Positions 35,943-50,939 of a stretch of DNA of 64,000 nucleotides are shown one piece after another. A program made the translations under genes and the position numbers. Under the pieces are notes generated by a model. That model was not told the origin of the DNA, searched no databases, and saw only the letters and a list, made by a program, of their open reading frames with translations. The number at the start of each line of letters is the position of its first letter. Positions within the stretch are counted from its first letter, which is position 1. This DNA comes from Leisingera aquimarina DSM 24565 (GTDB lineage Bacteria; Pseudomonadota; Alphaproteobacteria; Rhodobacterales; Rhodobacteraceae): positions 1,270,501 through 1,334,500 of the forward strand of contig NZ_KI421504.1 of NCBI RefSeq assembly GCF_000473165.1. The letters run 5' to 3'.

Positions 35943-36824
35943 TTAATCCAGTGCTTTGACCAGATGCCGCGTCTTTTCCGGATTCCGGGTCACGTAGATC
36001 CGGGAAATCCGGCCTTCCCGGATTTCCAGCGCTGTCGCTTGCAGAATGCCGTCCTCTGCCCAGTTCAATATGGCCGGCAGGCCGTTCAACTGGCAGAACC
36101 GCCAGCGATCCGGCGTCCTGCAGCCGGATTTGCGGGCAATCCCCTCAAGCAGCCGCAGCACCTTGTCCCGCCCGTAGATCGGATTGAGAGCCGCCATTGC
36201 CTTGCCGCCGCCGTCGGAGATGAGCTGAACTTCCTGTGTCAGCAGCCGGGTCAGTACCGCGGTGTCGCCGGTCTTGGATGCGCGGAAAAAGGCTTCAGTC
36301 AGATCGCGTCCCTGGTCCGGGTCTGCAGGGGCATGCGGTTGAAGTTTCTGCACTTTGCGCCGGGCTCTTGCCGCGAGTTGGCGGCAGGCGTCCGGGGTTC
36401 GGTTCAGCGCTGCGGAAATGTCCTCATAGGCGCTGTCGAAGATGTCGTGCAGCAGAAAGGCGGCGCGTTCCAGCGGCGACAGGGTTTCCAGCGCCAGCAG
36501 CAGCGCGACCGTGACATCGTGATCCAGAAGCTCGGTCGCGTCGTCTGTCAGAATGGGTTCGGGCAACCATTCACCGGGGTAGGTTTCGCGCCGGGCGCGC
36601 GCCGATTTCAGCTGGTCCAGACACAGCCGCGTGGTGATCCGCATCAGATAGCCGGTCGGATCCTGCACCTGCGTTTGCGGGGCTGTCTGCCAGCGCAGAA
36701 AGGCGTCCTGCAGAATGTCCTCGGCGTCGCTCACACTGCCCAGCATCCGGTAAGCGGCCGCAAACAATCGCGGCCGCGCCTTCTGAAACGCATCGGTTTC
36801 ATCTGTTTTGGGGTTTGCACTCAC
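35943..36824 (-). CDS. ECF41-type RNA polymerase sigma factor (SigJ-like)
   Basis: A 293-residue sigma factor. Region 2 (residues 13-80, RPRLFAAAYRMLGSVSDAEDILQDAFLRW) and region 4 (about 105-160, TLSPLERAAFLLHDIFDSAYEDISAAL) are followed by a C-terminal SnoaL-like domain. The domain carries DGGGK near residue 208 and NPEK near the C-terminus, as expected for ECF41, in which this domain controls activity in place of an anti-sigma factor. It overlaps its AhpD-like partner by four bases. ECF41 genes next to carboxymuconolactone decarboxylase-like genes are a classic arrangement, and the promoter upstream fits. Confidence 0.9.
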   Translation of the reverse strand: MSANPKTDETDAFQKARPRLFAAAYRMLGSVSDAEDILQDAFLRWQTAPQTQVQDPTGYLMRITTRLCLDQLKSARARRETYPGEWLPEPILTDDATELLDHDVTVALLLALETLSPLERAAFLLHDIFDSAYEDISAALNRTPDACRQLAARARRKVQKLQPHAPADPDQGRDLTEAFFRASKTGDTAVLTRLLTQEVQLISDGGGKAMAALNPIYGRDKVLRLLEGIARKSGCRTPDRWRFCQLNGLPAILNWAEDGILQATALEIREGRISRIYVTRNPEKTRHLVKALD

Positions 36825-37285
36825 GCGGCACTTGCCTCCTGTCCGGCAGGATGGGGGGTGCGGAAGCCGATTGCAATCCGGTTCCAGGCGTTGATGGTGG
36901 AGACCACCAATGTCAGTGCCGCCTGTTCACGCGGGGAAAACTGCTGTGCGACCAGATCATAGTCCGCGTCCGGCGCCGCAGTGGCCTCAATTCTTGTCAA
37001 GGCTTCGGTCCAGGCCAGGGCCGCCTGTTCCCGCGCGGAGTATAGCGAAGACTCCCGCCAGGCATTCAGGAGGTGCATCCGGTCTTCGCTCTCACCTTTC
37101 GAGCGCATGTCATGCGTGTGCATGTGGATGCAATACGCACAGCCATTGATTTGCGAGGCGCGCAGTTTCACCAATTCAATCAGGCTGTGTTCCAGGCCGC
37201 TGTCTTTCAGCGTGGCTTCAAGCGCCAGCATCGGTTGAAACAAGTCCGGTGCGATAGCGAAGTAATCAAGGCGCTGGGTCATCAT
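36821..37285 (-). CDS. AhpD-like carboxymuconolactone decarboxylase-family protein (ECF41 partner)
   Basis: A 154-residue protein with the reactive motif CAYCIHMHTHD near residue 50, a CxxC plus histidine typical of AhpD-type alkylhydroperoxidases. The frame has two adjacent ATG codons at its start (37285 and 37282). It heads the two-gene unit and is the likely target of the sigma factor encoded downstream, and the two are translationally coupled. A role in disposal of organic peroxides or other oxidised compounds is inferred from the family. Confidence 0.88.
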   Translation of the reverse strand: MMTQRLDYFAIAPDLFQPMLALEATLKDSGLEHSLIELVKLRASQINGCAYCIHMHTHDMRSKGESEDRMHLLNAWRESSLYSAREQAALAWTEALTRIEATAAPDADYDLVAQQFSPREQAALTLVVSTINAWNRIAIGFRTPHPAGQEASAA

Positions 37286-37404: not shown

Positions 37405-38292
37405 TCAGCGTTTGCCGTAGTAAAGGCCGACGACATGTTCCGCCTGAGCAAAGAACAGCCAGCGCGAGGTTGCGATACCTGCAATGTGCGACAGCGCCGC
37501 GAGGGCGGCAAACACATGTTTGATCACAACGCCCTGAACCGGGGTCAGGAGCAGCAAAAGCGGCAGGGCGAAACCCAGCACAAATGCAATCATCCGGAGC
37601 TTCTGGGCGTGTTTACGGCCGACCACATGCACGAACTCGCGCAACAGGTAGTTCGACCCGGTGTGCGGCGGCTCAAACGCGCGCACCGCGCCGCGGTCGC
37701 CGAGGCCGGTGGCGGTGCCGATGTCGGTGCCGGACGCCTCCAGCGCCTTGTCGCCTTTGGCCCAATAGGCCAGCTGCACCGAACCTGCGATCGCCAGCAG
37801 CCAGGGCGCCACGGCTTCGGCACCGGCCAGCAGTGCGCCGCCTGCCAGGCTGAACGACAGGAAGACCGCCGGGGTCAGCTCCATATTCCAGCGCGGGATG
37901 GTCTTGAGCTGGGTGTAGATCATCGAGGTGGTGAAGACGGTGGCAAGGCTGAGGGCAGCACCAATCCAGCCCAGCAATGTCCACTGGCTGTCGAAGAACA
38001 CCGCGCCAAGCGCATAAAGTCCCATGAAAAGCAGGGCTCCAACGGCGCAGACGCCCTCGCGCGACAGCCAGCTGGTCTTCCACTGGGTGAAAGCGCGCCA
38101 GGCCCGTTCCGGGCGGCCCAGGTGGAAGGTGGAGGCCAGCAGGCCGCCGCAGGCCAGGCCAAAGGCGATGGCGTAGAACACAAAGGCCACAGCGCCGGTC
38201 ACCGCAGGCTGGCCGAGGCCGAGGAAGGCCAGCAGGCCAAAGCCAAGACCCGACAGGGTGGTGAAGATAATGACGGATGGTGCGGGATGCAT
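37405..38292 (-). CDS. soeC: sulfite dehydrogenase membrane subunit SoeC (DmsC-like)
   Basis: A 295-residue integral membrane protein with eight or nine hydrophobic helices and no signal peptide; the ATG at 38290-38292 overlaps the soeB stop. It belongs to the DmsC-type anchor family (conserved FHLGRPERAWRAF and WKTSWLSREG). It carries electrons from the iron-sulfur subunit to quinone and fixes the complex to the inner membrane. Assignment to Soe rather than DMSO reductase rests on the neighbouring xsc, pta and tauE genes and on the large subunit lacking a Tat signal. Confidence 0.78.
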   Translation of the reverse strand: MHPAPSVIIFTTLSGLGFGLLAFLGLGQPAVTGAVAFVFYAIAFGLACGGLLASTFHLGRPERAWRAFTQWKTSWLSREGVCAVGALLFMGLYALGAVFFDSQWTLLGWIGAALSLATVFTTSMIYTQLKTIPRWNMELTPAVFLSFSLAGGALLAGAEAVAPWLLAIAGSVQLAYWAKGDKALEASGTDIGTATGLGDRGAVRAFEPPHTGSNYLLREFVHVVGRKHAQKLRMIAFVLGFALPLLLLLTPVQGVVIKHVFAALAALSHIAGIATSRWLFFAQAEHVVGLYYGKR

Positions 38293-39086
38293 CAGTGCGC
38301 CCCCCCTGAAGAAGTGCCTGGAAGTTTGTCGAGTGCCTTGTCGAGCCAGCCGAGGAACCCTTGCGGCTCTTCCGCGACCGGGGCCAGCAGCGGCGCGAGG
38401 ATGTCGATCTGATCCTCGATCTGGTCCTTGGGCCGGGGCGGCAGGTATTTGTTTACTGGCTTGGTGCCCATCTCCGGCATCAGATCCATACCGCCGCGCT
38501 CCTCTACGAGTTTGGAGACATCGCTGTCCGGATCGCCCAAATCGCCGAAATGGCGCGCGCCGGCCGGGCAGGTCCGCACGCACGAAGGAACGCGGTCCAC
38601 TTCCGGCAGGTTCTCGTTATAGATCCGGTCCACACAGAGCGTGCATTTCTTCATCACACCCTCGGCCAGATCCAGTTCCCGCGCGCCGTAAGGGCAGGAC
38701 CACGCACACAGGCCGCAGCCTATACAGTGGTCTTCGTTCACCAGGACGATGCCGTCCTCGACACGTTTATAACTGGCGCCGGTGGGGCAGACGGTGACGC
38801 AAGGTGCGTCCTCGCAATGAAGGCAGGACTTGGGGAAATGGATCAGCTGCGCCGCCGGATCCGGCTGGCTGCTGCAGGGGGTCGGCTTCACCTCATAGGA
38901 ATGCACCCGGTTCAGGAAGGTGCCCGAGGGATCGCCGCCGTAGGGGTCCTGATCCGACAAGGGCGCGCCGTAGTTTTCGGTGTTCCAGCCTTTGCAGGAA
39001 ATCACACAGGCATGGCAGCCGACGCAGGTGTCCAGGTCGATGACCAGACCCATTTTGCGCTCTGTGGAGTTGGGGAGCTGGGTCAC
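38292..39086 (-). CDS. soeB: sulfite dehydrogenase iron-sulfur subunit SoeB
   Basis: A 264-residue DmsB-like electron-transfer protein. The GTG at 39084-39086 is preferred, with GGAGG nine bases before it; a TTG further upstream would contain that site. Four [4Fe-4S] sites are visible: CVGCHACVISC, CLHCEDAPCVTVC, CIGCGLCAWSC and CTLCVDR...CVRTC. It passes electrons from the molybdenum subunit to SoeC. It overlaps soeC by one base and is separated from soeA by an intergenic repeat of the Roseobacter type. Confidence 0.8.
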   Translation of the reverse strand: MTQLPNSTERKMGLVIDLDTCVGCHACVISCKGWNTENYGAPLSDQDPYGGDPSGTFLNRVHSYEVKPTPCSSQPDPAAQLIHFPKSCLHCEDAPCVTVCPTGASYKRVEDGIVLVNEDHCIGCGLCAWSCPYGARELDLAEGVMKKCTLCVDRIYNENLPEVDRVPSCVRTCPAGARHFGDLGDPDSDVSKLVEERGGMDLMPEMGTKPVNKYLPPRPKDQIEDQIDILAPLLAPVAEEPQGFLGWLDKALDKLPGTSSGGAH

Positions 39087-39121
39087 GTCAGCGTACCTCC
39101 GCAATATTGGTGAAGGCAGGT

Positions 39122-39168
39122 TGGGGCGCTGCCCCAGACCCCGGGATATTGGGGGCCAGAAGAAGAAG
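39122..39168 (+). repeat. Roseobacter-type intergenic repeat, copy 3
   Basis: TGGGGC/GCCCCA hairpin with a 3-base loop (39122-39136), then ACCCCGGGATATT and GGCCAGAAGAAG. It lies in the 87-base space between soeA and soeB, inside an operon, so it cannot be a complete terminator on the coding strand without separating soeBC from soeA. Confidence 0.7.
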
Positions 39169-39173
39169 CCGGA

Positions 39174-41996
39174 TCATTTGCCTACTTTCCATTTCAATTC
39201 TTTGGGGCCGGTGCCGACCGGCGACTCCTGTGCCGGGAAGGCTGGCTGGCTTTCCTGCAGATCTGCGGGTGCAGCGGCCTTTTCAATTTTCACTTTCAGA
39301 TCGAACCAGGCAGCCTGGCCGGTGATCGGGTCCGAGTTGGCCCACCGCATGCCGTCGCCTTTGGGTGGCAGCAGCTCGTGGATCAGGTGATTGAGCAGGA
39401 AGCCCTTGGTGGCCTCCGGTGCGTCCTCTTCCAGCGCCCAGGCGCCCTTGCGCTTGCCGATGGCGTTCCAGGTCCAGACGGTGTTTTCGTTCAGCGCGGC
39501 CATCTCCATTACCGGCACGGTGATCTCGCCATGCGGCGAGGTGACCTTGGCCCAGTCGCCGTCCTGCAGCCCGTTCTCCTGCATCAGCTTGGTCGGCACA
39601 TACAGCGGGTTGCGGCCATGCAGCTGGCGCAGCCAGGCGTTCTGGGTGCCCCAGGAGTGGTACATTGCCATCGGGCGCTGTGTCAGCGCATTGACGGTGA
39701 AGCCCTCGTTACCCTGCTGGTCGGTCTCGTACCAGATCGGCAGCGGGTCCATCACGTCCTTGACCCGCTGGCGCAGGTGGTCCGGCGGCTGGCGGTCGCC
39801 GTGGCCTTCGGCGGCGAGCTGGAACTTGCGCATCGGCTCCACATAAAGCTGGAACAGATAGGGCTGCGGGCTGTCATAGATGCCCATGTCCACCGCCCAG
39901 TCCTGATAGGTGGTGTTCCAGGGTTTGTAGTAACCTGCCTCTTCTGGAATGTGGGCCACATGGAAGCCGCCGTTTTCTATGTATTGTTTCAGCTGCTCCG
40001 GGTTCACCTCGCCGCGGCCGGTTTTGCTGCCGTCTTCACCGCGAAAACCGGACAACGGGCCAATTCCCGGCTTGCGCTCGTGGTTGACGATGTAGTCGGC
40101 GTAGTCTTTCCACTTGGCGGTGCGGTCCTCGTTGGTGAAGCCGGGCAGCTTCATCCGGTTGGCGAGCTGGACCAGCACGGTCTGGAAGCCGCGCACGTCG
40201 CGGTCGGGCTCGATCACCGGCCAGCGGATCGCATCCGCCGCCGCATCCGCCTCGCAGATCGGGCGGTCCAGCAGCGAGATACAGTCGTGGCGTTCCAGAT
40301 AGGTGGTGTCAGGCAGGATCAGGTCGGCAAAAGCCACCATCTCGGACGAATAGGCGTCTGAGTAGATGATATGCGGGATCTTGTAGTCGCCGTTCTCATC
40401 CTTGTCGGTCAGCATCTCCATTACACCCTTAGTGTTCATGGAGGAGTTCCACGACATGTTGGCCATATACATGAACAGCGTGTCGATCTTATAGGGATCA
40501 CCCGCATGCGCGTTGGAGATCACCATGTGCATCAGCCCATGCGCCGACATCGGGTTTTCCCAGGTGAACGCCTTGTCGATCCGCGCCGGGCTGCCGTCTT
40601 CCTTCAGCGCCAGATGCTCGGGGCCGCGCACAAAGCCCAGATGCGGGCCGTCCAGCGGGGTGTCGGGGGTCGCCTTGCAGTGCGGGGTCGGGTGCGCCTC
40701 GACCGGTTTGGGGTAGGGCGGTTTGAAGCGGAAGCCGCCGGGGACCTCAACCGTGCCAAGGATGATCTGCAGCACATGCAGCGCGCGGCAGGTCTGAAAG
40801 CCGTTGGCGTGCGCAGAGACGCCCCGCATCGAGTGCATCGAGACCGGGCGGCCGGTCATCTTGGTGTGTTTCTCTCCGCGGAAATCTGTCCATTCGACGT
40901 CCAGCTCAAACGCCTCGTCAAAGGCGACGCGGGCCAGCTCGCCGGCAATGGCGCGGATACGCTTGGCCGGGATGCCGCATTTCTCGGCGATGGCTTCGGG
41001 GGCGTATTCATCGGCCAGATAGCGTTCGGCCATCTGGTGAAACACCGGGCGGTGTGTGACACCGTCTTTTTCATAGACTGCCGACAGGTCGGGGCGCACG
41101 CCGGGCTGGTCAAACGGAGTCAGTTTGCCGGTGTTGCGGTCAATGACCAGCATTTTGTCGTCATCATCGCGCAGGAACAGACCCTTGTCCGGTCCTTCGG
41201 CAGCGTTCACCAGCACCGGCGCATTAGTATAGCGGCTGAGGTAATCCAGGTCGATCTTGCCGGCCTTCATCAGCACATGGATCATCGACAGGATGAACAG
41301 CCCGTCGGTGCCCGGCGTGATACCGACCCATTCATCTGCAATCGCGTTATAGCCGGAGCGGATCGGATTGACGCCGATCACCCGCGCGCCGCGCTTTTTG
41401 ATCTTGCCCAGCCCCATCTTGATCGGGTTGGAATCGTGATCCTCGGCCACGCCAAACAGCATGAACAGCTTGGTGTGGTCCCAGTCGGGCTGGCCGAACT
41501 CCCAGAACGCGCCGCCCATGGTGTAGATACCGGCCGTGGCCATGTTGACCGAGCAGAAACCGCCATGCGCCGCATAGTTCGGGGTGCCGAAGCTTTGCGC
41601 CCAGAAGCTGGTGAAGCTTTGCGACTGGTCACGTCCGGTGAAAAACGCCAGCTGCTCGGGCGCCTCGTGGCGGACCGGCTCCAGCCAGCCCACTGCAATC
41701 GCCAGTGCTTCGTCCCAGGAGATTTCCTTGTACTGGCCGGAGCCGCGCGGGCCGGTGCGTATCATCGGCGCCTTCAAGCGTGACGGCGCGTTGACCTGCA
41801 TGATGCCGGCCGACCCTTTGGCGCAGAGCACGCCTTTGTTCACCGGGTGGTCGCGGTTGCCTTCAATGTACGCAACCTTGCCGTCTTTCATATGCACATT
41901 GATGCCGCAGCGGCAGGCGCACATGTAACAGGTGGTTTGCCGGATCTCGTCCGAGACCTTGGGCGACGTGTTCAGGATTGGCTGCTGATGGGTCAT
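39174..41996 (-). CDS. soeA: sulfite dehydrogenase molybdenum subunit SoeA
   Basis: A 940-residue molybdo-bis(MGD) oxidoreductase of the DMSO reductase family. The N-terminal [4Fe-4S] cysteines are C23, C26, C30 and C58, and the molybdopterin domains run to about residue 780 with a dinucleotide-binding domain at the end. There is no twin-arginine signal, so it is cytoplasmic, unlike DmsA or PsrA. In Roseobacter relatives the same three genes next to xsc/pta encode SoeABC, which oxidises sulfite to sulfate and reduces quinone. It follows pta after about 96 bases in the same direction, fitting sulfite disposal after Xsc. Confidence 0.82.
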   Translation of the reverse strand: MTHQQPILNTSPKVSDEIRQTTCYMCACRCGINVHMKDGKVAYIEGNRDHPVNKGVLCAKGSAGIMQVNAPSRLKAPMIRTGPRGSGQYKEISWDEALAIAVGWLEPVRHEAPEQLAFFTGRDQSQSFTSFWAQSFGTPNYAAHGGFCSVNMATAGIYTMGGAFWEFGQPDWDHTKLFMLFGVAEDHDSNPIKMGLGKIKKRGARVIGVNPIRSGYNAIADEWVGITPGTDGLFILSMIHVLMKAGKIDLDYLSRYTNAPVLVNAAEGPDKGLFLRDDDDKMLVIDRNTGKLTPFDQPGVRPDLSAVYEKDGVTHRPVFHQMAERYLADEYAPEAIAEKCGIPAKRIRAIAGELARVAFDEAFELDVEWTDFRGEKHTKMTGRPVSMHSMRGVSAHANGFQTCRALHVLQIILGTVEVPGGFRFKPPYPKPVEAHPTPHCKATPDTPLDGPHLGFVRGPEHLALKEDGSPARIDKAFTWENPMSAHGLMHMVISNAHAGDPYKIDTLFMYMANMSWNSSMNTKGVMEMLTDKDENGDYKIPHIIYSDAYSSEMVAFADLILPDTTYLERHDCISLLDRPICEADAAADAIRWPVIEPDRDVRGFQTVLVQLANRMKLPGFTNEDRTAKWKDYADYIVNHERKPGIGPLSGFRGEDGSKTGRGEVNPEQLKQYIENGGFHVAHIPEEAGYYKPWNTTYQDWAVDMGIYDSPQPYLFQLYVEPMRKFQLAAEGHGDRQPPDHLRQRVKDVMDPLPIWYETDQQGNEGFTVNALTQRPMAMYHSWGTQNAWLRQLHGRNPLYVPTKLMQENGLQDGDWAKVTSPHGEITVPVMEMAALNENTVWTWNAIGKRKGAWALEEDAPEATKGFLLNHLIHELLPPKGDGMRWANSDPITGQAAWFDLKVKIEKAAAPADLQESQPAFPAQESPVGTGPKELKWKVGK

Positions 41997-42092
41997 GGGC
42001 GGGTCCTGTTGGGTGTTTCGGGCGACCGTATGACGGAAAGCCTCAATTTGGGAATAGTGTTCTGCAAGGGTTCGGATTTTTGGGAGGATGGT

Positions 42093-43127
42093 TCAAATAT
42101 CCGGACCTGATGCGCCTGCGGCCTGCAGGATGGTGACGGCGATGATCTGGGTGACATCTTCGGCGCTGCAGCCGCGCGACAGGTCGTTGGCGGGTTTGGC
42201 CAGCCCCTGCAGCACCGGTCCGATGGCGGAATAACCACCCAGCCGCTGGGTGATCTTATAGCCGATATTGCCTGCATCCAGATTGGGGAAGATCATCACA
42301 TTGGCCTGGCCCGCAACCCTGGAGCCGGGCGATTTCCGTTCTCCGATCGCGGGCACAAAGGCGGCGTCGAACTGCAGTTCGCCATCGGCCTGCAGATCAG
42401 GGTGCGCGTCCTGGAACAGGCGGAGGGCCTCGGTTACCTTGTCCACGGCCGGATGCTTGGCGCTGCCCTTAGTGGAGAAGCTGAGGAATGCCAGTTTCGG
42501 ATCCGCCCGCAGCAGCGCTTGCGCGGATCGGGCCGAAGCTGCAGCGATCGAGACCATCTCGGCCGGTTTCGGATCAATCACCAGGCCGCAATCGGAATAG
42601 AGCATCGCGCGGGCGCCATCCGGGGCGCCATCAGGCGGGTACATCAGGAAAAAGGAGGACACCATGCCGGCATCCGGCGCCATGCCGATTACCTGAATGG
42701 CGCTGCGCACCACGTCGCCGGTGGTGTGAACCGCGCCGCCGACGGTGCCGGTGGCATGGCCCAGACGCACCAGCATGGCGGCATAGGCCAGCGGAGTTTC
42801 AGCGGCTGCGCGGGCGGCGGCCTCATCCACGCCCTTGTGCTTGCGAAGCTCAAGGTATTCAGCGGCGAAGGTTCCAGTCAGCCCGGATGTGGCCGGGTCA
42901 TGAACCGCGACGCCCTTGCTTGCGCTGGCGCCTTCGGCTTGCAGGGCTGCTTCGACTTCTGCCTGCGGGCCGATCAGGATCACATCGGCGATACCGGCCT
43001 GATGCGCGGCCAGGGCACCCGCCACGACGCGGGGGTCAGTGCCTTCGCTAAGGGCAACAACAGGACGGATGGCCGGGGCTTCGGCCTGCAGCAGTTCGAG
43101 GGGCGAGAGTGTTTTGGTCACGGGCAT
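42093..43127 (-). CDS. pta: phosphate acetyltransferase
   Basis: A 344-residue enzyme consisting only of the PTA_PTB domain, as in sulfonate-associated Pta, without the long N-terminal regulatory part of E. coli Pta. The family blocks SEGTDPRV near residue 28, VHTTGDVVRSAIQVIG near 145 and FPNLDAGNIGYKI near the end are present. It turns acetyl phosphate made by Xsc into acetyl-CoA. The xsc-tauE-pta set is tightly spaced (5 and about 35 bases), so it is one transcript. Confidence 0.92.
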   Translation of the reverse strand: MPVTKTLSPLELLQAEAPAIRPVVALSEGTDPRVVAGALAAHQAGIADVILIGPQAEVEAALQAEGASASKGVAVHDPATSGLTGTFAAEYLELRKHKGVDEAAARAAAETPLAYAAMLVRLGHATGTVGGAVHTTGDVVRSAIQVIGMAPDAGMVSSFFLMYPPDGAPDGARAMLYSDCGLVIDPKPAEMVSIAAASARSAQALLRADPKLAFLSFSTKGSAKHPAVDKVTEALRLFQDAHPDLQADGELQFDAAFVPAIGERKSPGSRVAGQANVMIFPNLDAGNIGYKITQRLGGYSAIGPVLQGLAKPANDLSRGCSAEDVTQIIAVTILQAAGASGPDI

Positions 43128-43162
43128 TGGTCCTGTAGCTGCGGTTCGGGGCGTCGGGGCGT

Positions 43163-43909
43163 TCAGAACGCTAGCCGCGCGATATTGATCAGCGAAAAGG
43201 CGGTCAGCATCAGCACCACCGCGCGCCGGAACAGTCTTTGCGAGACCGCATGAAAACTGCGGGAGCCGGCCCAGATGCCGAGCCCCAGAATGGGAAAGGC
43301 CAGCAGGATGCCGGTCAGCGTTTCCGGACCCACCAGCCCGTTTGCGGCCATCACCGGCAGCGCCATCAGGTCGATGCCCGTCAGAAACACGATCATCGTC
43401 GCGCGGAACACCGCAGGCGGCACCGGCTGCGCGGTCAGAAAAGCCGCCACTGGAAGCCCGCCGACACCGGCACTGTTGGCGATGCCTGCGATGGCGCCGA
43501 CACCCGCGGTGCCATTGCGCCCGACCGGGCGTTCCAGCTGCCAGCCGCTTAGCAAAACCAGGCTCAGCACCAGAATCAGGCAGGAGATCGCCATCCGCGC
43601 CTCGTATTCTCCCAGCCGGGCCATGATGGCGATGGCGGGAACAGTGGCGACGGCGGCACCGGCCAGCAGGGCAAAGGCGCGGCGCCAGTCGATATGCGGG
43701 CGGATGCCGCGCGCCTGAAAGACGGTCATGGCGATTTCGCAGGAAAACACCACCGGGATCAGCGGCAGCGGATTGGTGGTCAGCGCTGCCAGAATGATAA
43801 AGATCGCGGAAAATCCAAAGCCGGAAAAGCCGCGGATCAAGGCCGCCGCGAATAACGCGGCGGCCAGATAGGCCCCCTGGCCCATTGAAAGGTCAAAGGG
43901 CAGGGGCAT
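43163..43909 (-). CDS. TauE/SafE-family sulfite exporter-like permease
   Basis: A 248-residue integral membrane protein of eight hydrophobic segments belonging to the TauE/SafE family. It begins MPLPFDLSMGQGAYLAAALFAAALIRGFSGFGFS, with the GFSGFGF motif near residue 28. Members near sulfonate genes are thought to export sulfite or other sulfonate products. It lies five bases after xsc and before pta, so it belongs to the sulfonate operon. Transport direction and substrate are inferred. Confidence 0.8.
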   Translation of the reverse strand: MPLPFDLSMGQGAYLAAALFAAALIRGFSGFGFSAIFIILAALTTNPLPLIPVVFSCEIAMTVFQARGIRPHIDWRRAFALLAGAAVATVPAIAIMARLGEYEARMAISCLILVLSLVLLSGWQLERPVGRNGTAGVGAIAGIANSAGVGGLPVAAFLTAQPVPPAVFRATMIVFLTGIDLMALPVMAANGLVGPETLTGILLAFPILGLGIWAGSRSFHAVSQRLFRRAVVLMLTAFSLINIARLAF

Positions 43910-43914
43910 CAGGT

Positions 43915-45687
43915 TCAGACCTGCTGCGGACGCATGTCGTCTTTGCTGATGCCAGCAACGGCGACCGGTTTCTTCATTGCGTCGCGGCGGAAGGGTTCAC
44001 CCAGTTCCTGGTTGATCATCGCTTCGATCAGCGTGGTGATGCCTTTCTTCTGGTCTTCGCAAGCCTGGCGCAGGGCGTCGGTCAGCTCGTCCTGAGTACG
44101 GGCAATCACACCTTTCAGGCCGCAGGCATTGGCGATACCGGCATAAGACACCTGGGTGTCCAGCTCGGTGCCGACAAAGTTGTCGTCGAACCACAGGGTG
44201 GAGTTACGCTTTTCCGCGCCCCACTGGTAGTTGCGGAAGACAACCTGGGTCACGGCGGGCCATTCTTCGCGGCCAATCGCGGTCAGCTCGGTCACTGCGA
44301 TGCCGAAGGCGCCGTCGCCCGAGAAGCCGACAACCGGAACGTCCGGACAGCCGATTTTCGCGCCGACAACCGCCGGCAGGCCGTAGCCGCAGGGGCCGAA
44401 CAGGCCGGGGGCCAGGTATTTGCGGCCGTCCTCAAACGACGGGTAGGCGTTGCCGATGGCGCAGTTGTTGCCGATGTCCGAGGAGATGATCGCGTCCTTG
44501 GGCAGGCCAGCCTGGATCGCACGCCATGCACGGCGCGGCGACAGCCAGTCGGGCTTGGCATCGCGGGCACGCTGGTTCCAGGTGGTGCCGGGATCGTCCT
44601 GCTCGCTGTCCATCGAAGACAGTTCCTGTGCCCAGGCAGACTTGGTGTGCGAGATCAGCGCCTTGCGCTCATCGCGGCCTGCGTCGCCTGCGGTGTCCGC
44701 CAGTTGGCCAAGGATGGTGTCTGCAACGGTTTTTGCGTCGCCAACGATGCCGACGGTGACTTTCTTGGTCAGGCCGATGCGGTCCGGATTGATGTCAACC
44801 TGGATGATTTTCGCGTCGGTCGGCCAGTAGTCAATGCCATAGCCGGGCAGGGTCGAGAACGGGTTCAGGCGGGTGCCCAGTGCCAGCACGACGTCAGCCT
44901 TGGAGATCAGCTCCATGCCGGCCTTGGAACCATTGTAGCCCAGCGGGCCTGCAAACAGTGGGTGCGAGCCGGGGAAGGCGTCGTTGTGCTGGTAGCCAAC
45001 GCAAACCGGGGCATCCAGACGCTCGGCCAGAGCCATCGAAGCAGGGATCGCGCCGCCGATGACAACGCCGGCACCGTTCAGGATGACCGGGAATTTGGCG
45101 TTCGACAGCAGCTCGGCTGCCTGGCTCACCGCATCCGCACCGCCGGAGGGCAGTTCAAAGTCGACGATTGCGGGCAGGTCGATGTCGATGACCTGAGTGA
45201 AGTAGTCGCGCGGCACGTTGATCTGGGCCGGCGCCGAGTTGCGCTTGGCCTGCATGATCACGCGGTTCAGGACTTCCGCCATGCGGGAGGGGTCGCGCAC
45301 TTCTTCCTGGTAGCAGACGCAGTCGGCAAACATGCGCATCTGTTCCATTTCCTGGAAACCGCCCTGACCCATGGTCTTGTTCGCGGCCTGCGGGGTGACC
45401 AGCAGCAGCGGGGTGTGGTTCCAGTAGGCGGTTTTCACGGCGGTGACGAAGTTGGTGATGCCGGGACCGTTCTGGGCGATCATCATCGACATCTTGCCGG
45501 TGGCGCGGGTGTAGCCGTCCGCCATCATGCCGCCGGACCCTTCGTGGGCGCAGTCCCAGAAGGTGATGCCTGCCGGCTCAAAGATATCGGAAATCGGCAT
45601 CATGGCCGAGCCGATGATGCCAAAGGCGTGTTCGATGCCGTGCATTTGCAGGGTTTTGACGAAGGCTTCTTCGGTGGTCATTTTCAT
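43915..45687 (-). CDS. xsc: sulfoacetaldehyde acetyltransferase
   Basis: A 590-residue thiamine diphosphate enzyme of the Xsc family. The N-terminal TEEAFVKTLQMHGIEHAFGIIGSAMMPISD, the GPGITNFVTAVKTAYWNHTPLLLVTP region and the ThDP/magnesium motif GDGAFG...RNYQWGAEK (about 457-485) are complete. It converts sulfoacetaldehyde and phosphate to acetyl phosphate and sulfite, the key step for taurine and other C2 sulfonates. The leader (45688-45947) contains TauR boxes; it is the first gene of xsc-tauE-pta-soeABC. Confidence 0.96.
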   Translation of the reverse strand: MKMTTEEAFVKTLQMHGIEHAFGIIGSAMMPISDIFEPAGITFWDCAHEGSGGMMADGYTRATGKMSMMIAQNGPGITNFVTAVKTAYWNHTPLLLVTPQAANKTMGQGGFQEMEQMRMFADCVCYQEEVRDPSRMAEVLNRVIMQAKRNSAPAQINVPRDYFTQVIDIDLPAIVDFELPSGGADAVSQAAELLSNAKFPVILNGAGVVIGGAIPASMALAERLDAPVCVGYQHNDAFPGSHPLFAGPLGYNGSKAGMELISKADVVLALGTRLNPFSTLPGYGIDYWPTDAKIIQVDINPDRIGLTKKVTVGIVGDAKTVADTILGQLADTAGDAGRDERKALISHTKSAWAQELSSMDSEQDDPGTTWNQRARDAKPDWLSPRRAWRAIQAGLPKDAIISSDIGNNCAIGNAYPSFEDGRKYLAPGLFGPCGYGLPAVVGAKIGCPDVPVVGFSGDGAFGIAVTELTAIGREEWPAVTQVVFRNYQWGAEKRNSTLWFDDNFVGTELDTQVSYAGIANACGLKGVIARTQDELTDALRQACEDQKKGITTLIEAMINQELGEPFRRDAMKKPVAVAGISKDDMRPQQV

Positions 45688-45773
45688 GGCGGGTTCTCCT
45701 GAGTGAGACGCGGAATTCCCCCGGGCGCAGTGCCGGGAATTGACTCTGGTTTAGGGGGCGGGGGGAGGCCGGG

Positions 45774-45818
45774 TTAGGGCCAGTTATCAAACCCGGATAG
45801 GTCCAAAACTGGACCTAT
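45774..45818. promoter_or_regulatory. TauR boxes before xsc
   Basis: TTAGGGCCAG (45774-45783) and the palindromic pair ATAGGTCCA (45797-45805) and TGGACCTAT (45810-45818). These match the CTGGACYTAA-type motif reported for TauR of Rhodobacter capsulatus. They lie 87-131 bases upstream of the xsc start, the position of an activator. Confidence 0.72.
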
Positions 45819-45881
45819 GAAAATAGCAGGACAGGATTTTCACATAAGCTTCAGTTGGTCACGTGATGCGGGCACATGAAT

Positions 45882-45932
45882 GCGATTGGCGCGGCAAATG
45901 ATACGTTTGGTATCATTTGCCGCGCCAATCGC
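45882..45932. terminator. 23-bp perfect hairpin between tauR and the xsc promoter
   Basis: Arms 45882-45904 and 45910-45932 are exact reverse complements of 23 bases with a 5-base GTTTG loop. The tauR gene ends at 45948 on the minus strand, so this is its transcript end, 16 bases downstream. No T-run follows on either side. The stem is unusually long for a plain terminator. Confidence 0.72.
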
Positions 45933-45947
45933 CGTTGGCTCTGGGAT

Positions 45948-47417
45948 TCAGCTCTGCTTCAGTGCCTTGGCAATCAGTGCCAGGCCAGGTTCGATTCTTG
46001 TGGCGGGAATCGAAGAATAGCCAAGCCGGTAATAGTTCTGCTGGCGGTGCTCGGCACCAAAGAACGGTGCGCCGGGTTCGATGATGACGCTCTTTTCCTT
46101 CAGCCGGTCTGCAACAGCGGTGGTATCCACCCCGTCCGGCGCGCGCATCCACAGGGCCGAGCCGCCAAAGCTGCCGACACCAGCAATGGTGAGGCCGTGC
46201 TTGCGGATGGCATCCTCGATCACTGCGCGGCGGTCATGCAGAACCTTTGCAGTCCGGCGGATCTGGGCGTCGTAGTGTCCCAGCGACAGGAAATAGGCGA
46301 CCGTGCGCTGGACATGGCCCGGCGGATGCCGCAGCACGCTGGCGCGCAATGCCCTGGCCTGGCGGATAAACGGTTCCGAGCCGACCAGATACCCAAGCCG
46401 CAGCCCGGGAAACAGCGATTTGGAGAAACTGCCGGCATAGATCACCCGTCCTTCGGTATCGAGAGACTTCAGCGAAGGGGAAGGCGCGCCAAGAAAGGAC
46501 ATTTCGAATTCGTAATCATCCTCGACAATCACCGCGTCGATTTCGCTCGCCCGCTGCAGCAGCTCCTTGCGCCGTTCCATCGGCATGGTGAAGGTGGTCG
46601 GGCTTTGGTGGCTGGGTGTGCAAAAGATCACATCGGTGTCTTGCGAAATCTGCTCTGGCGGCAGCCCGCCGTCATCGACCGGAATGCAGTCCACCTGGCA
46701 GCGGGTCTGCACCACCTGGTCGCGCAGAGTGTAATAGGCCGGATCCTCCACCGCAGCCCGCCGCCCTCGGTTCAACAGCAGTTGCGAGGTGATCCACAGC
46801 GCATTCTGGGCGCCCAGGGTGATCAAAACTTCTTCAGGCCGGGCGGTGATCCCGCGCCGCGGCAGCGTGTGGCGGGCGATGTATTCGATCAGCAGCGGAT
46901 CGTCCTGATCGAAGTAATCATTTGCCAGGGCGGCAAAATCCTTCTGCCCCAATGCCCGCAGCGCGCACAGCCGCCAGTTGGCATGGTCAAACAGCGAAGC
47001 ATCGGCCTGACCGTAGATGAAGGGATAGCGGTACTCGCGCCAGTCCTGTGGTTTGCGCGGGGTGTCGCCGCCGGTAAAGCTGCGCGCCAGCACCTTGCCC
47101 CAATCCATTGCATCGCCGGACTTCTGCTGCGGCGTATAGGAGGGCGGCACCGGCGCATTGTCTGAAACGAAGTATCCCGAGCGCCCGCGCGAGGTGAGAT
47201 AGTCATTGGCCAAGAGCTCGGTATAGGCCAGCGTCACGGTGATCCGGCTGATCCCCAGATGCGCCGCCAGCTTGCGCGAGGACGGCAGCTTTTCCCCGAC
47301 CCGGAACCGGCCGGACAAAATGCCCTCGGCAATCATTTCCTGGATCTGCGCCTGCAGCGTGCCCTGAGCGTCCGGGTTGAGGAAGAAGGTATCGACGGAA
47401 ATGGCCATGCGCGCCAC
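45948..47417 (-). CDS. tauR: MocR-type taurine regulator TauR
   Basis: A 489-residue fusion of a GntR winged helix (residues 20-90, IAEGILSGRFRVGEKLPSSRKLAAHLGISRITVTLAYTEL) and an aminotransferase fold (about 130-489) with the PLP lysine in AGSFSKSLFPGLRLGY. The start is a GTG at 47415-47417 or an ATG at 47406-47408. It activates taurine degradation genes in response to taurine and PLP in R. capsulatus. Boxes upstream of its own start suggest autoregulation. Confidence 0.9.
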   Translation of the reverse strand: MARMAISVDTFFLNPDAQGTLQAQIQEMIAEGILSGRFRVGEKLPSSRKLAAHLGISRITVTLAYTELLANDYLTSRGRSGYFVSDNAPVPPSYTPQQKSGDAMDWGKVLARSFTGGDTPRKPQDWREYRYPFIYGQADASLFDHANWRLCALRALGQKDFAALANDYFDQDDPLLIEYIARHTLPRRGITARPEEVLITLGAQNALWITSQLLLNRGRRAAVEDPAYYTLRDQVVQTRCQVDCIPVDDGGLPPEQISQDTDVIFCTPSHQSPTTFTMPMERRKELLQRASEIDAVIVEDDYEFEMSFLGAPSPSLKSLDTEGRVIYAGSFSKSLFPGLRLGYLVGSEPFIRQARALRASVLRHPPGHVQRTVAYFLSLGHYDAQIRRTAKVLHDRRAVIEDAIRKHGLTIAGVGSFGGSALWMRAPDGVDTTAVADRLKEKSVIIEPGAPFFGAEHRQQNYYRLGYSSIPATRIEPGLALIAKALKQS

Positions 47418-47424
47418 CTTAGGG

Positions 47425-47461
47425 TGGACTTAAATAGGGTGCAATCTGGACTTAGGGCCAG
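47425..47461. promoter_or_regulatory. TauR boxes between tauR and the SDR gene
   Basis: TGGACTTAA (47425-47433), CTGGACTTAG (47446-47455) and TTAGGGCCAG (47452-47461) overlap. They are 8-40 bases upstream of the tauR start and about 165 bases before the divergent SDR gene, so both genes may respond to TauR. Confidence 0.68.
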
Positions 47462-47625
47462 TTTGGAGAAAACTGCGGCTTGCTGTGGTCTGGCAACCAG
47501 TTCCAGCCGCATCCGACCTGTTTCTTGCGGTTTCCAGCAAGGGACAGCGGCAAGCGCAGGAACCGGGTCGCCGTTGGTCACGGCAGTTCTCTAGTCGTTC
47601 CAGCACAGCCATTCAGGAGATGATT

Positions 47626-48381
47626 ATGGAACTGAAAAACAAGACACTCATCATTACCGGCGCCAGCAGCGGCATTGGCGCCGCTGCAGCGCTGCTGTTT
47701 GCGGCAGAAGGGGCCAATGTCGTGCTGGGGGCCCGGCGGCAGACTGAACTGCAGACCCTTGCCGGGCAGATCAACCAAAGCGGCGGCAAAGCGGCCTGTC
47801 TTGCCGGCGATGTCACCAGCGAAGCCTATTCGGCAAACCTGGTGGCGCTTGCGGTGGAAGAATTCGGCGGGCTCGACGGGGCCTTCAATAATGCGGGCAT
47901 GATGGGCGATATGGGACCCGTGGATCAAATGGATGCTGCCAATTGGAACGCGGTGATTGCTGCCAACCTCACTGGGGCGTTTTTCTCGGCCAAGGCGCAG
48001 ATACCGGCGCTAAGGGCGCGGGGCAGCGGGTCGCTTGTCTTTACCGGATCCTTTGTTGGCTTCAGCAACGGCGGCATGCCGGGGATGGGCGCCTATGCCG
48101 CGTCAAAGGCCGGGCTGGCCGGGCTGGTCCAGTCGCTGGCCTCTGATCACGCGGCAGAAGGCATCCGGGTGAATGCCTTGCTGCCCGGCGGGACCAAGAC
48201 CGCCATGGCGGGAGACGATCCGGAGACGCACAGCTTTATCGCCGGGCTGCACCCGATGAAGCGGATGGCCGCCCCGTCTGAAATAGCCCAGGCCGCAATG
48301 TTCCTGTTGTCGGACCGGTCCAGCTTCGTAACCGGAACCCCAATGGCGGTGGACGGCGGGGTTGCCGTGCGGCTGGTCTAG
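47626..48381 (+). CDS. short-chain dehydrogenase/reductase
   Basis: A 251-residue classical SDR from the ATG at 47626 (AGGAG at 47615-47619). The cofactor motif TGASSGIG lies near residue 13, NNAG near 89, and the catalytic Ser-Tyr-Lys is seen in GSFVG and YAASK near 153-157. The glucose-1-dehydrogenase-like family name gives no substrate. Position between tauR and tpa with shared TauR boxes suggests sulfonate metabolism, for instance reducing sulfoacetaldehyde to isethionate as IsfD does, but its sequence does not prove this. Confidence 0.85.
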   Translation: MELKNKTLIITGASSGIGAAAALLFAAEGANVVLGARRQTELQTLAGQINQSGGKAACLAGDVTSEAYSANLVALAVEEFGGLDGAFNNAGMMGDMGPVDQMDAANWNAVIAANLTGAFFSAKAQIPALRARGSGSLVFTGSFVGFSNGGMPGMGAYAASKAGLAGLVQSLASDHAAEGIRVNALLPGGTKTAMAGDDPETHSFIAGLHPMKRMAAPSEIAQAAMFLLSDRSSFVTGTPMAVDGGVAVRLV

Positions 48382-48387
48382 GCCCCA

Positions 48388-48416
48388 GCACCTAAAACGA
48401 ATGCACCTAAAACGAA
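48388..48416. repeat. tandem direct repeat, 15-bp unit
   Basis: GCACCTAAAACGAA occurs at 48388-48401 and again at 48403-48416, separated by a T. It lies between the SDR stop and the terminator of tpa and looks like a recent local duplication. Confidence 0.75.
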
Positions 48417-48442
48417 AAAGCGCCCCGGAAAATCCGGGGCGC
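48411..48442 (-). terminator. terminator of tpa
   Basis: On the minus strand a perfect 9-bp stem (GCGCCCCGG 48420-48428 with CCGGGGCGC 48434-48442) with a 5-base loop is followed by TTTTTCGTT. It lies 28 bases after the tpa stop and also before the convergent SDR end. Confidence 0.88.
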
Positions 48443-48469
48443 AGTTTGATCGTCCAACAGGGAGAGATG

Positions 48470-49867
48470 TCAGCCGAATACTTTGGTCAGGGCATTGTCG
48501 ACCGCATCGCAGATCTGGTCGATGTCGTCTGCGGTGGCGATCAGCGCGGGGCTGAAGCAAAGGGTGTTGTTGCGGCCCGGCAGCGAGCGGTTGGTTACAC
48601 CGATGATCACGCCCTGCGCGCCGCATTCTGCGACAACCTGCTGGGCCAGCTTCTCGTCCACGGGTTCCTTGGTGTCACGGTCTGCGACCAACTCGGCGCC
48701 CAGGAACAGGCCCTTGCCGCGCACATCGCCGATCACGGCGTGCTTTTCTTTCAGCGCGGCCAGGTTGCTGAGCATGCGCTCGCCCATGGCGGTGCAGTTG
48801 TCCAGCAGGTTCTCTTCCTCGATGATGCGCATGTTTTCCAACGCCGCAGCGGGGCCGGCCGTGCAGCCGCCAAAGGTCGAGATGTCGCGGAAATAGCCCA
48901 TTGGGTCCGAGGCGTCTTCCTTGAACATGTTGAAGACTTCCTCGGTGGTCACCATGCAGGCAATCGCCGCATAACCTGAAGCCACACCTTTGGCCATGGT
49001 CACAAAGTCGGGTTTGATGCCGTACTGCTGGTAGCCGAACCATTTGCCGGTGCGGCCAACGCCGCAGACCACTTCGTCGATGTGCAGCAGCACGTCGTGC
49101 TTCTTGCAGATCTCCTGCACGCGCTCCCAGTAGCCTTCGGGTGCCTCAATGACGCCGCCGCCAGCGGTCACCGGCTCCAGGCACAGGGCGCCAACGGTTT
49201 CCGGGCCTTCGCGCAGGATGACTTCTTCGATGGCGTCTGCTGCAGCGATGCCGAATTCGCGGCCGGACAGGTGTTCCAGCCCCAGCTCATGCTTGCGGTA
49301 CTCCATGCAGTGCGGCACGCGGACAAAGTCCGGCGCAAAGGGGCCGTACTGCGCATTGCGCTCGTCCTGACCGCCGGCCGACATGGTCGCCAGGGTGGAG
49401 CCGTGATAGTCGCGGTCGCGGTACAGGATCTTGGTTTTCTTGCCGCCGTATTTCTTGTGGGCGATCTGACGGATCATCTTGAAGGCCTTCTCGTTGGCCT
49501 CGGATCCGGAGTTGGTGTAGTAGACGCGGGTCATACCCGGCATCTTCTCGATCAGCTTTTCGGCAAACAGCGCACCGGGGATGGAACCGGCGGAGTTGGC
49601 GAAATAGCAGAGCTTCATCATCTGCTCATAGACAGCTTTGCAGACGCTTTCGCGGCCATAGCCGACGTTGACAGTCCAGACACCGCCGGACACCGCATCC
49701 AGGAACTCCTTGCCGTTCTGATCCCAGACGCGCATGCCCTTGCCTTCGACAATGATGCGCGGGTCAGTGGTTTCCAGCGCCTTGTGCTGGAACAGGTGAT
49801 GCCACATGTGGGCCTTGTCGGCCTCGACCACACGGGAGAGATCGTTTTCGTTGAACGTGCCGTCCAT
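48470..49867 (-). CDS. tpa: taurine:pyruvate aminotransferase
   Basis: A 465-residue class III PLP aminotransferase. The PLP lysine lies in FVTMAKGVASGY near residue 290; GSEANEKAFKMIR, YHGSTLATMSAGG and DEVVCGVGRTG match Tpa over its full length. It transfers the amino group from taurine to pyruvate, giving sulfoacetaldehyde and L-alanine, and feeds Xsc. Boxes upstream (49968-50000) suggest TauR control although it is transcribed separately from xsc. Confidence 0.93.
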   Translation of the reverse strand: MDGTFNENDLSRVVEADKAHMWHHLFQHKALETTDPRIIVEGKGMRVWDQNGKEFLDAVSGGVWTVNVGYGRESVCKAVYEQMMKLCYFANSAGSIPGALFAEKLIEKMPGMTRVYYTNSGSEANEKAFKMIRQIAHKKYGGKKTKILYRDRDYHGSTLATMSAGGQDERNAQYGPFAPDFVRVPHCMEYRKHELGLEHLSGREFGIAAADAIEEVILREGPETVGALCLEPVTAGGGVIEAPEGYWERVQEICKKHDVLLHIDEVVCGVGRTGKWFGYQQYGIKPDFVTMAKGVASGYAAIACMVTTEEVFNMFKEDASDPMGYFRDISTFGGCTAGPAAALENMRIIEEENLLDNCTAMGERMLSNLAALKEKHAVIGDVRGKGLFLGAELVADRDTKEPVDEKLAQQVVAECGAQGVIIGVTNRSLPGRNNTLCFSPALIATADDIDQICDAVDNALTKVFG

Positions 49868-49967
49868 GACATGTCCTTTCGGCGTTAGAAGTGAATCAGG
49901 CTGCCCGGAACCCTACAGGGCTTCAGAGGCGTATTATGTACCAGAAACGTCAGATTTCGGGAATTGG

Positions 49968-50000
49968 TTAGGGCCAGAGCATGTGCTTGCTTAGGTCCAG
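49968..50000. promoter_or_regulatory. TauR boxes between tpa and the BKACE gene
   Basis: TTAGGGCCAG (49968-49977) and TTAGGTCCAG (49991-50000) stand in the same direction, 23 bases apart from start to start. They are 101-133 bases before tpa and 163-195 before the divergent BKACE gene. Confidence 0.7.
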
Positions 50001-50086
50001 AGCTACCCGGCTCAAGCAGTTCAGCGGCGGATCACGGGGTGCAGAATCGTCGTAAAACAAACGTTCTGAAATGACGGCCTTGAGAG

Positions 50087-50162
50087 CGGTTGTCCCGGGC
50101 CGCAGGCTGCAGTCATCCTGAACGCGAGTCGCGGCAGGGCAGGCTGCAGAGGGGGACAACCG
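50087..50162 (+). promoter_or_regulatory. structured leader of the BKACE gene
   Basis: CGGTTGTCCC (50087-50096) and GGGACAACCG (50153-50162) are exact inverted repeats. The right arm covers part of the GGGGGA ribosome site and ends at the base before the GTG start, so the fold would hide initiation. Inside are two copies of GCAGGCTGCAG (50102-50112 and 50140-50150) and a GCGAGTCGC hairpin. It resembles a switch leader in form but matches no class known to me. Confidence 0.5.
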
Positions 50163-50939
50163 GTGGCAGAATACAGATTGATGGCGGCCCCGAACGGAGC
50201 CCGGCGCGGGCGCGGGGATCACCCGCAGCTGCCGGTGACGCCACAGCAGACGGCCCGGACAGCGGCAGCCTGTTTTGCGGCCGGCGCCCAGGCGCTGCAT
50301 CTGCATGTGCGCGACGATGAGGGCCGCCATTCGCTGGACGCGGGCCGCTACCGCGAAGCCCTTGATGCGGTGCGGGAAAGCGTGACGGGGATGGCGGTGC
50401 AGATCACCACCGAAAGCGCCGGTCTCTATGATGTGGCTGACCAGCTCGCCTGCCTGGAGGCGCTGCGCCCTGCCGCAGCTTCGGTTTCGGTGCGGGAAAT
50501 GGCACGGGACCCGCAACTGGCCGCGCGTGCCTACGCGCTGAGCTTGGAGGCGGGCACCCAGGTGCAGCACATTCTTTACGGACCCGACTGCATCGCCCGG
50601 CTGCGGGCCTGGTATCAGGACGGCACCGTACCCAGCACCCTGCGCGATGCGATCTTTGTTCTGGGCAAGTACAATCCGCCGGTTCTGGCGCAGCCCGAAG
50701 GCCTGGCAGCCTTCCGTGACGCTACGGCAGACTTGCGCCTCGGCTGGACCGTCTGCGCCTTTGGCCGCCACGAGCGCGCCTGCCTGCTGGCCGCCGTCGC
50801 TGCGGGCGGGAATGCGCGAATCGGATTTGAGAATAACATCGAAACACCGGAAGGCGGGCTGCTGGCAGACAATGCAGCCTCGGTTGCCGCCTTCGTCCAG
50901 GCCGCGCGGGATGCGGGCCATAGCCTCAAGGAGTGCTGA
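50163..50939 (+). CDS. BKACE-family beta-keto acid cleavage enzyme (DUF849)
   Basis: A 258-residue TIM-barrel protein starting with a GTG at 50163. Characteristic features are APNGARRGRGDHPQLPVTP near residue 8, LHLHVRDDEGRHS near 47 (metal and substrate ligands) and QITTESAG. BKACE enzymes cleave a beta-keto acid with acetyl-CoA to acetoacetate and a new CoA ester; the best known acts on 3-keto-5-aminohexanoate. The next gene, an aminotransferase two bases on, could supply the keto acid. Divergent from tpa. Confidence 0.88.
   Translation: MAEYRLMAAPNGARRGRGDHPQLPVTPQQTARTAAACFAAGAQALHLHVRDDEGRHSLDAGRYREALDAVRESVTGMAVQITTESAGLYDVADQLACLEALRPAAASVSVREMARDPQLAARAYALSLEAGTQVQHILYGPDCIARLRAWYQDGTVPSTLRDAIFVLGKYNPPVLAQPEGLAAFRDATADLRLGWTVCAFGRHERACLLAAVAAGGNARIGFENNIETPEGGLLADNAASVAAFVQAARDAGHSLKEC

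Follow-up and report, generated by a model that had tools for sequence, protein, structure and literature searches.

The 64-kb window analyzed here (the whole stretch of DNA under study, positions 1,270,501 to 1,334,500 of contig NZ_KI421504.1) comes from Leisingera aquimarina DSM 24565 and contains a taurine locus with a gene for the regulator TauR. Three exact direct-repeat pairs of the CTGGACYTAA type can be read directly from the DNA, as can their orientation and conservation and the families to which the genes belong. On the minus strand lie, in the order of transcription, tauR, xsc, a TauE-family permease gene, pta, soeA, soeB, and soeC. The tpa gene is on the minus strand too, further upstream than tauR. 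A short-chain dehydrogenase/reductase (SDR) gene is found on the plus strand between tauR and tpa. A BKACE gene and a class-III aminotransferase gene, also on the plus strand, are divergent from tpa. Coordinates and family matches are collected in Table 1. A preliminary description of this DNA had placed xsc, a TauE-like permease, pta, and soeABC in one direction with tpa nearby, and the open reading frames and family profiles bear this out. It also had the set "followed by tauR". This is correct for the coordinates only, since in transcription tauR is upstream of xsc, on the same strand.

The gaps between the genes of the xsc unit are 5, 35, 96, and approximately 69 bp. The likely start of soeC is at 38292, where it overlaps the stop codon of soeB by one base (junction TGATG). 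The real start of soeB, judged by eye, is likely to be near 39086. Because the gaps are short and soeB and soeC overlap, xsc-tauE-pta-soeABC is likely to be one transcript. The tauR frame opens at GTG 47417, and its likely start is ATG 47408. A promoter scan of 45500-50300 returned no promoter, with a mean of 1.2 in shuffled sequences. The SDR was considered as a sulfoacetaldehyde reductase, and this was rejected because it matches general SDR families only.

The motif TGGMCYTA occurs eight times in the window, and all eight matches are in the xsc, tauR/SDR, and tpa/BKACE gaps, in agreement with the earlier statement that the boxes are found nowhere else in the 64 kb. The count itself is mildly unusual (shuffle mean 2.98; at least eight in 2 of 100 shuffles). 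The stricter YTGGMCYTA occurs seven times, a number reached by none of 100 shuffles. Across the 5.34-Mb host genome there are two exact direct-repeat pairs with a 23-bp period, in the xsc gap and the tpa gap, and one with a 22-bp period, in the tauR gap; no other exact pair exists at either period. A genome-wide search for TauR sites had been proposed as a check. Its outcome is divided: exact pairs single out the three gaps, and the single box CTGGMCYTAA carries no signal, its search being uninformative (18 matches versus 42 for the reversed control). The signal is the direct-repeat pair rather than the single box. When one mismatch is allowed, the host genome has four 23-bp pairs versus five in the reversed control. 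With up to two mismatches, the numbers are 13 versus 39 at 23 bp and 9 versus 33 at 22 bp. As these looser pairs show no excess over the control, we claim no wider regulon.

The genes that accompany the pairs were determined in a scan of 120 family genomes, with a single genome for each genus and the host genome among them; these are not independent by descent. The scan gave 48 exact 23-bp pairs in 41 genomes (3 for the reversed control) and 26 exact 22-bp pairs in 25 genomes (5 for the reversed control). All 46 of the 23-bp pairs outside the host genome were fetched, and 42 are upstream of, and read with, either tpa (23 pairs) or xsc (19 pairs). Among the 25 exact 22-bp pairs outside the host, 18 are at the tauR start and oriented opposite to the gene, four read with xsc, and three with tpa. 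The association of spacing with gene has a Fisher value of 6e-10, calculated from 43 of the 46 pairs at 23 bp and all 25 at 22 bp, with three 23-bp pairs near no relevant gene omitted and with genera that share descent. Because these pair-centered sets were chosen by the box, we also fetched tauR genes regardless of boxes. The gene was found in 31 of 61 genomes, with 28 usable relatives. At one mismatch or fewer in all, and any period from 12 to 39, a pair is present in 15 of these 28 relatives and is antisense to tauR in 15 of 15. The period is 22 bp in 12 of them, 23 bp in two, and 21 bp in one. Many genomes are in both sets, and the tauR-centered and 22-bp counts are therefore not independent. 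L161 and L162 were left out of the analysis.

The regulator has a GntR winged-helix domain (PF00392) and an aminotransferase-like domain (PF00155), both above the gathering score, which is the domain make-up of the MocR subfamily. CTGGACYTAA direct repeats and the activation of taurine use by a MocR-type TauR have been published (PMC5320631). The TauR regulons of Suvorova & Rodionov 2016 include tpa, xsc, pta, tauE, and tauABC (PMC5320631). The family-wide pairs and this precedent support the earlier proposal that tpa and xsc-tauE-pta-soeABC belong to one TauR regulon.

We interpret the locus as a Roseobacter-type taurine locus in which TauR, dependent on pyridoxal 5'-phosphate (PLP), would activate tpa and xsc-tauE-pta-soeABC and repress tauR, with the SDR and BKACE genes probably outside the regulon. 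We estimate the probability of this interpretation to be roughly 0.7. Taurine would enter the cell and act with PLP on TauR. A TauR dimer would bind two half-sites 22–23 bp apart, which is about two helical turns. Activation of tpa and the xsc unit would proceed from pairs that read with the target, approximately 90–100 bp before the start of the gene. The pair at tauR is next to the start of the gene and in counter-orientation, which fits autorepression. It is likely to be an autoregulatory operator, a prediction in line with the autorepression described as common among MocR regulators (PMC5320631). In the pathway, Tpa would give sulfoacetaldehyde, Xsc acetyl phosphate and sulfite, and Pta acetyl-CoA. 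SoeABC would oxidize sulfite to sulfate, and the TauE-family permease may serve as a sulfite outlet.

What is perhaps new here is the orientation of the TauR pairs, which point the same way as their target genes and opposite to tauR. A general operator rule can be put forward tentatively, with the odds somewhat against it. Across the family, target-reading pairs (mostly 23 bp) would activate, the pair opposed to tauR (mostly 22 bp) would repress, and orientation together with the one-base difference in spacing would set the mode. If this rule were true, TauR would offer a simple system for studying what makes a MocR dimer an activator at one site and a repressor at another, and a box lying in the gap between two genes could be assigned more reliably to one of them during annotation.

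Several observations weigh against the proposed circuit or the rule. NCBIfam assigns the regulator to PdxR (345.4 bits; cut-off 320), although two other proteins of the host genome also exceed that cut-off; no model named TauR is among the 25 of 67 matches listed. For Tpa, no NCBIfam model is above its cut-off among the 25 of 67 matches listed. No gene for a taurine importer is found within the locus. There are four exceptions among the 46 exact 23-bp pairs (L109, L165, L170, and L171): the pair in L171 is at tauR, antisense, and has a class-III aminotransferase gene on its far side, and the other three are near none of tpa, xsc, and tauR. A scan of 21 genomes of the genus gave three exact 23-bp pairs apart from tpa and xsc, one each in G127, G128, and G135. 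At tauR itself, 13 of the 28 tauR-centered relatives have no pair with at most one mismatch and a period of 12–39. Seven of the 25 pairs at 22 bp are at tpa or xsc, and two of the 15 tauR pairs are spaced at 23 bp, so that spacing alone defines no function. Finally, five relatives (L110, L118, L121, L124, and L125) have a TauA-like gene, named by eye and with one Pfam check, divergent from tpa. The sole exact pair in each of these five gaps reads toward tpa, and three of the five hold an exact half-site toward the TauA-like gene. Given that tauABC is listed in TauR regulons, these shared gaps mean that reading direction is no proof of one-sided control. A tpa-directed pair may act on the divergent gene as well, BKACE included.

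The same five gaps lend support to the alternative in which TauR does control the BKACE-aminotransferase operon, acting divergently from the gap between this operon and tpa, as the preliminary description had proposed. We consider this unlikely. The BKACE and SDR comparisons used 18 named loci in which tauR, tpa, and BKACE occur together; the nearest named relatives in the BKACE search were Leisingera. That tpa and BKACE are adjacent in 18 loci of several genera speaks for common control, as does L127, where another BKACE-family gene is divergent from tpa. Some Rhodobacterales TauR regulons list a Tpa-related COG161 aminotransferase (PMC5320631), which may be the BKACE neighbor. However, the pair in the gap is directed at tpa, and its distance from tpa is kept. 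It is exact in 13 of the 18 loci; the remaining five have an intact tpa-proximal half and a degenerate distal half at the same period, with conservation computed over all 19 aligned rows. Of the 13 exact loci, 12 have the pair 101 bp from tpa and L039 has it at 89 bp, and the length of the gap over the 18 loci is between 260 and 438 bp. Nor does the operator stay with BKACE in relatives: none of 56 BKACE loci without tpa has a 22- or 23-bp pair with at most one mismatch, the presence of tauR in those genomes not having been checked. A search with TGGMCYTA found no half-site toward BKACE in the gap of the window, as against three of the five TauA-like gaps that have one toward the TauA-like gene.

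A different palindrome, like GAACA-N2-TGTTC, recurs on the BKACE side of the gap. With at most two mismatches it is present in 17 of 19 related gaps, and in 14 of them it is approximately 100 bp before BKACE. Letter shuffles gave such a palindrome in 359 of 3800 gaps, for a pattern that was picked after viewing the alignment, and the window has 34 near matches with up to two mismatches (shuffle mean 15.6). As the pattern is post hoc and the window is rich in near matches, the palindrome is only a lead to another regulator, of which it is a possible site.

In 44 of the 56 BKACE loci without tpa, the aminotransferase of the BKACE operon (at least 61% identity) adjoins BKACE, and in L095 genes of a TRAP-type transporter are nearby. 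Clustering of the neighbors was noisy owing to antisense open reading frames, and we propose no substrate for the BKACE-aminotransferase pair. In L127 (589-1588; genome G030), a BKACE-family gene is followed, by eye, by a frame resembling 3-hydroxyacyl-CoA dehydrogenase. An exact pair between this BKACE-family gene and tpa reads toward tpa.

The soeABC genes encode molybdopterin, 4Fe-4S, and DmsC-type membrane subunits side by side, and we predict a sulfite dehydrogenase, named from homology and context. SoeA is 88% identical to one protein named SoeA by one source (P0052). Among the 120 homologues listed, most of the named ones have generic or other names. Some Rhodobacterales TauR regulons include bisC/dmsC/hybA (PMC5320631), which by family type are probably soeABC. 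Suvorova & Rodionov 2016 suggested that these subunits act as an electron acceptor for the taurine dehydrogenase TauXY (PMC5320631). We regard it as very improbable that SoeABC in Leisingera serves TauXY and not sulfite. In R. pomeroyi the homologues carry the annotation of a sulfite dehydrogenase (PMC4334477), and in the Leisingera locus soeABC is behind xsc-tauE-pta while the deaminating enzyme is a predicted transaminase (no search for tauXY in the genome was made). It is because of this transaminase, and of the position of soeABC after xsc and pta, that sulfite oxidation is preferred.

The "complete taurine-to-sulfate route" of the preliminary description stands for the enzymes and fails for import, as the locus has no importer. 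A TauA-like gene 0.4 Mb away was examined as a member of an importer and rejected, as its TIGR01729 score of 157.6 bits is below the cut-off of 304.25. In the 12 kb around it there is no pair with at most one mismatch, and its neighbors look unrelated to taurine by eye.

We give the SDR only a very small chance of being controlled by TauR from the tauR gap; this part of the earlier proposal is not supported. In the window, the tauR-gap pair points toward the SDR, whose likely start is approximately 170 bp further on. Of the 18 loci, however, 16 have an exact tauR pair and two have one with a single mismatch, although the SDR is present in only four; in two of these four (L032 and L038) it is approximately 2.4 kb from the pair. 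Where the SDR is absent, the tauR-tpa interval holds other genes, for example that of an ArsP-family permease (L089). In L030 and L037 the interval is only 270–330 bp or so. In L139, L146, L148, and L149, tpa precedes tauR on the same strand and ends approximately 90–360 bp from it, which leaves hardly any space for a divergent gene driven by the box. The pair reads against tauR at the tauR start, and this antisense pair recurs across family genomes. Since it is kept in loci without the SDR, the pair follows tauR and not the SDR; no operator stays with the SDR in relatives.

We give next to no credence to the pairs being operators of another MocR regulator of the host genome and not of the adjacent TauR: two further MocR-type proteins in this genome also pass the NCBIfam PdxR cut-off, but across family genomes the pairs go with tauR, tpa, and xsc, and their consensus is the published TauR consensus (PMC5320631).

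The core circuit is known biology, because the annotation of Ruegeria pomeroyi DSS-3 is alike and a TauR regulon with such genes has been published. The xsc gene of R. pomeroyi is, we presume, SPO3561. The content and order of tauR, pta, soeA, soeB, and soeC are the same there, with soeC, soeB, soeA, pta, and tauR as SPO3557-3560 and SPO3562, annotated as a taurine regulator and sulfite dehydrogenase (PMC4334477). R. pomeroyi differs in having tpa and tauABC at SPO0673-0676, whereas the Leisingera tpa is near tauR with no adjoining tauABC. The TauE-family permease between xsc and pta is also unlike R. pomeroyi. For Rhodobacter capsulatus TauR, the 2008 work of Wiethaus is said to have tpa and xsc as targets. 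The R. capsulatus regulon has the same CTGGACYTAA direct repeats and a MocR-type activator (PMC5320631). Compared with it, Leisingera has soeABC in the xsc unit; the counter-oriented 22-bp pair at tauR is described for Leisingera, with no claim that such a box is new to the literature. That one regulator can govern the use of taurine carbon and nitrogen as well as sulfite disposal in a marine Roseobacter-type bacterium has for the most part been published already. The analysis usefully adds a correction, the gaps shared with the SDR and BKACE having been taken for shared regulation, and a testable, tentative operator rule.

Table 1. Features of the taurine locus (positions in the window).
Feature	Position	Strand	Family match or remark
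soeC, DmsC-type membrane anchor	37405..38292	-	PF04976, 48.7 bits
soeB, 4Fe-4S subunit	38292..39104	-	Fer4_11 and other Fer4 families; open reading frame
soeA, molybdopterin subunit, 940 amino acids	39174..41996	-	PF00384, PF04879, PF01568
pta, phosphate acetyltransferase	42093..43127	-	TIGR00651, 332.9 bits (cut-off 311.2)
TauE/SafE-family permease, predicted sulfite exporter	43163..43909	-	PF01925, 60.7 bits
xsc, sulfoacetaldehyde acetyltransferase	43915..45687	-	TIGR03457, 929.2 bits (cut-off 676.4)
TauR-type direct-repeat pair, 23-bp period	45774..45806	-	toward xsc, 87 bp before xsc ATG
Half-site in xsc gap	45774-45783	-	
Half-site in xsc gap	45797-45806	-	
Extra inverted half-site in xsc gap	45809-45818	+	present in 2 of 18 relatives
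tauR, GntR winged-helix and aminotransferase-like domain	45948..47417	-	PF00392, PF00155
TauR-type direct-repeat pair, 22-bp period	47424..47455	+	away from tauR, ~16 bp before ATG 47408
Half-site in tauR gap	47424-47433	+	
Half-site in tauR gap	47446-47455	+	
Overlapping inverted half-site in tauR gap	47452-47461	-	exact in 10 of 18 relatives
tpa, predicted taurine:pyruvate aminotransferase	48470..49867	-	PF00202; name from context
TauR-type direct-repeat pair, 23-bp period	49968..50000	-	toward tpa, 101 bp before tpa ATG
Half-site in tpa/BKACE gap	49968-49977	-	
Half-site in tpa/BKACE gap	49991-50000	-	
Palindrome GAACA-N2-TGTTC, degenerate copy (2 mismatches)	50055..50066	+	BKACE side; not a TauR box

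After soeC, at 35943-37285 of the window, there is a gene of the carboxymuconolactone-decarboxylase family with an overlapping gene for an extracytoplasmic function (ECF) sigma factor. We take this pairing to resemble ECF41 modules. COG2128 is listed in some TauR regulons (PMC5320631), and sulfite-responsive ECF control of other sulfite-oxidizing enzymes has been described (PMC6527743).

A one-mismatch pair at G000:C1:2616311-2616341 (L011; L210) lies approximately 55 bp upstream of a small YCII-like gene, whose neighbor is, by eye, argS. The Pfam score of the YCII-like gene is 20.1 bits (cut-off 24). The pair recurs in 18 of 21 genomes of the genus, as judged by the spacer. Nine aligned rows show conservation of the whole block, in which the spacer holds TATGAT or TATCAT, and because of this conservation it may be a promoter; it may otherwise be a fourth operator.

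In L109 (1501-2536; genome G041), the exact 23-bp pair adjoins a TauE/SafE-family gene and reads away from it. A further block with a 23-bp period, TGGCNTTAA...TGGCCTTA, recurs in the genus genomes G126, G127, G128, G130, G133, G137, and G139. It is exact in G127 and G128, has an internal inverted repeat, is located away from tpa and xsc, and is perhaps the site of another regulator.

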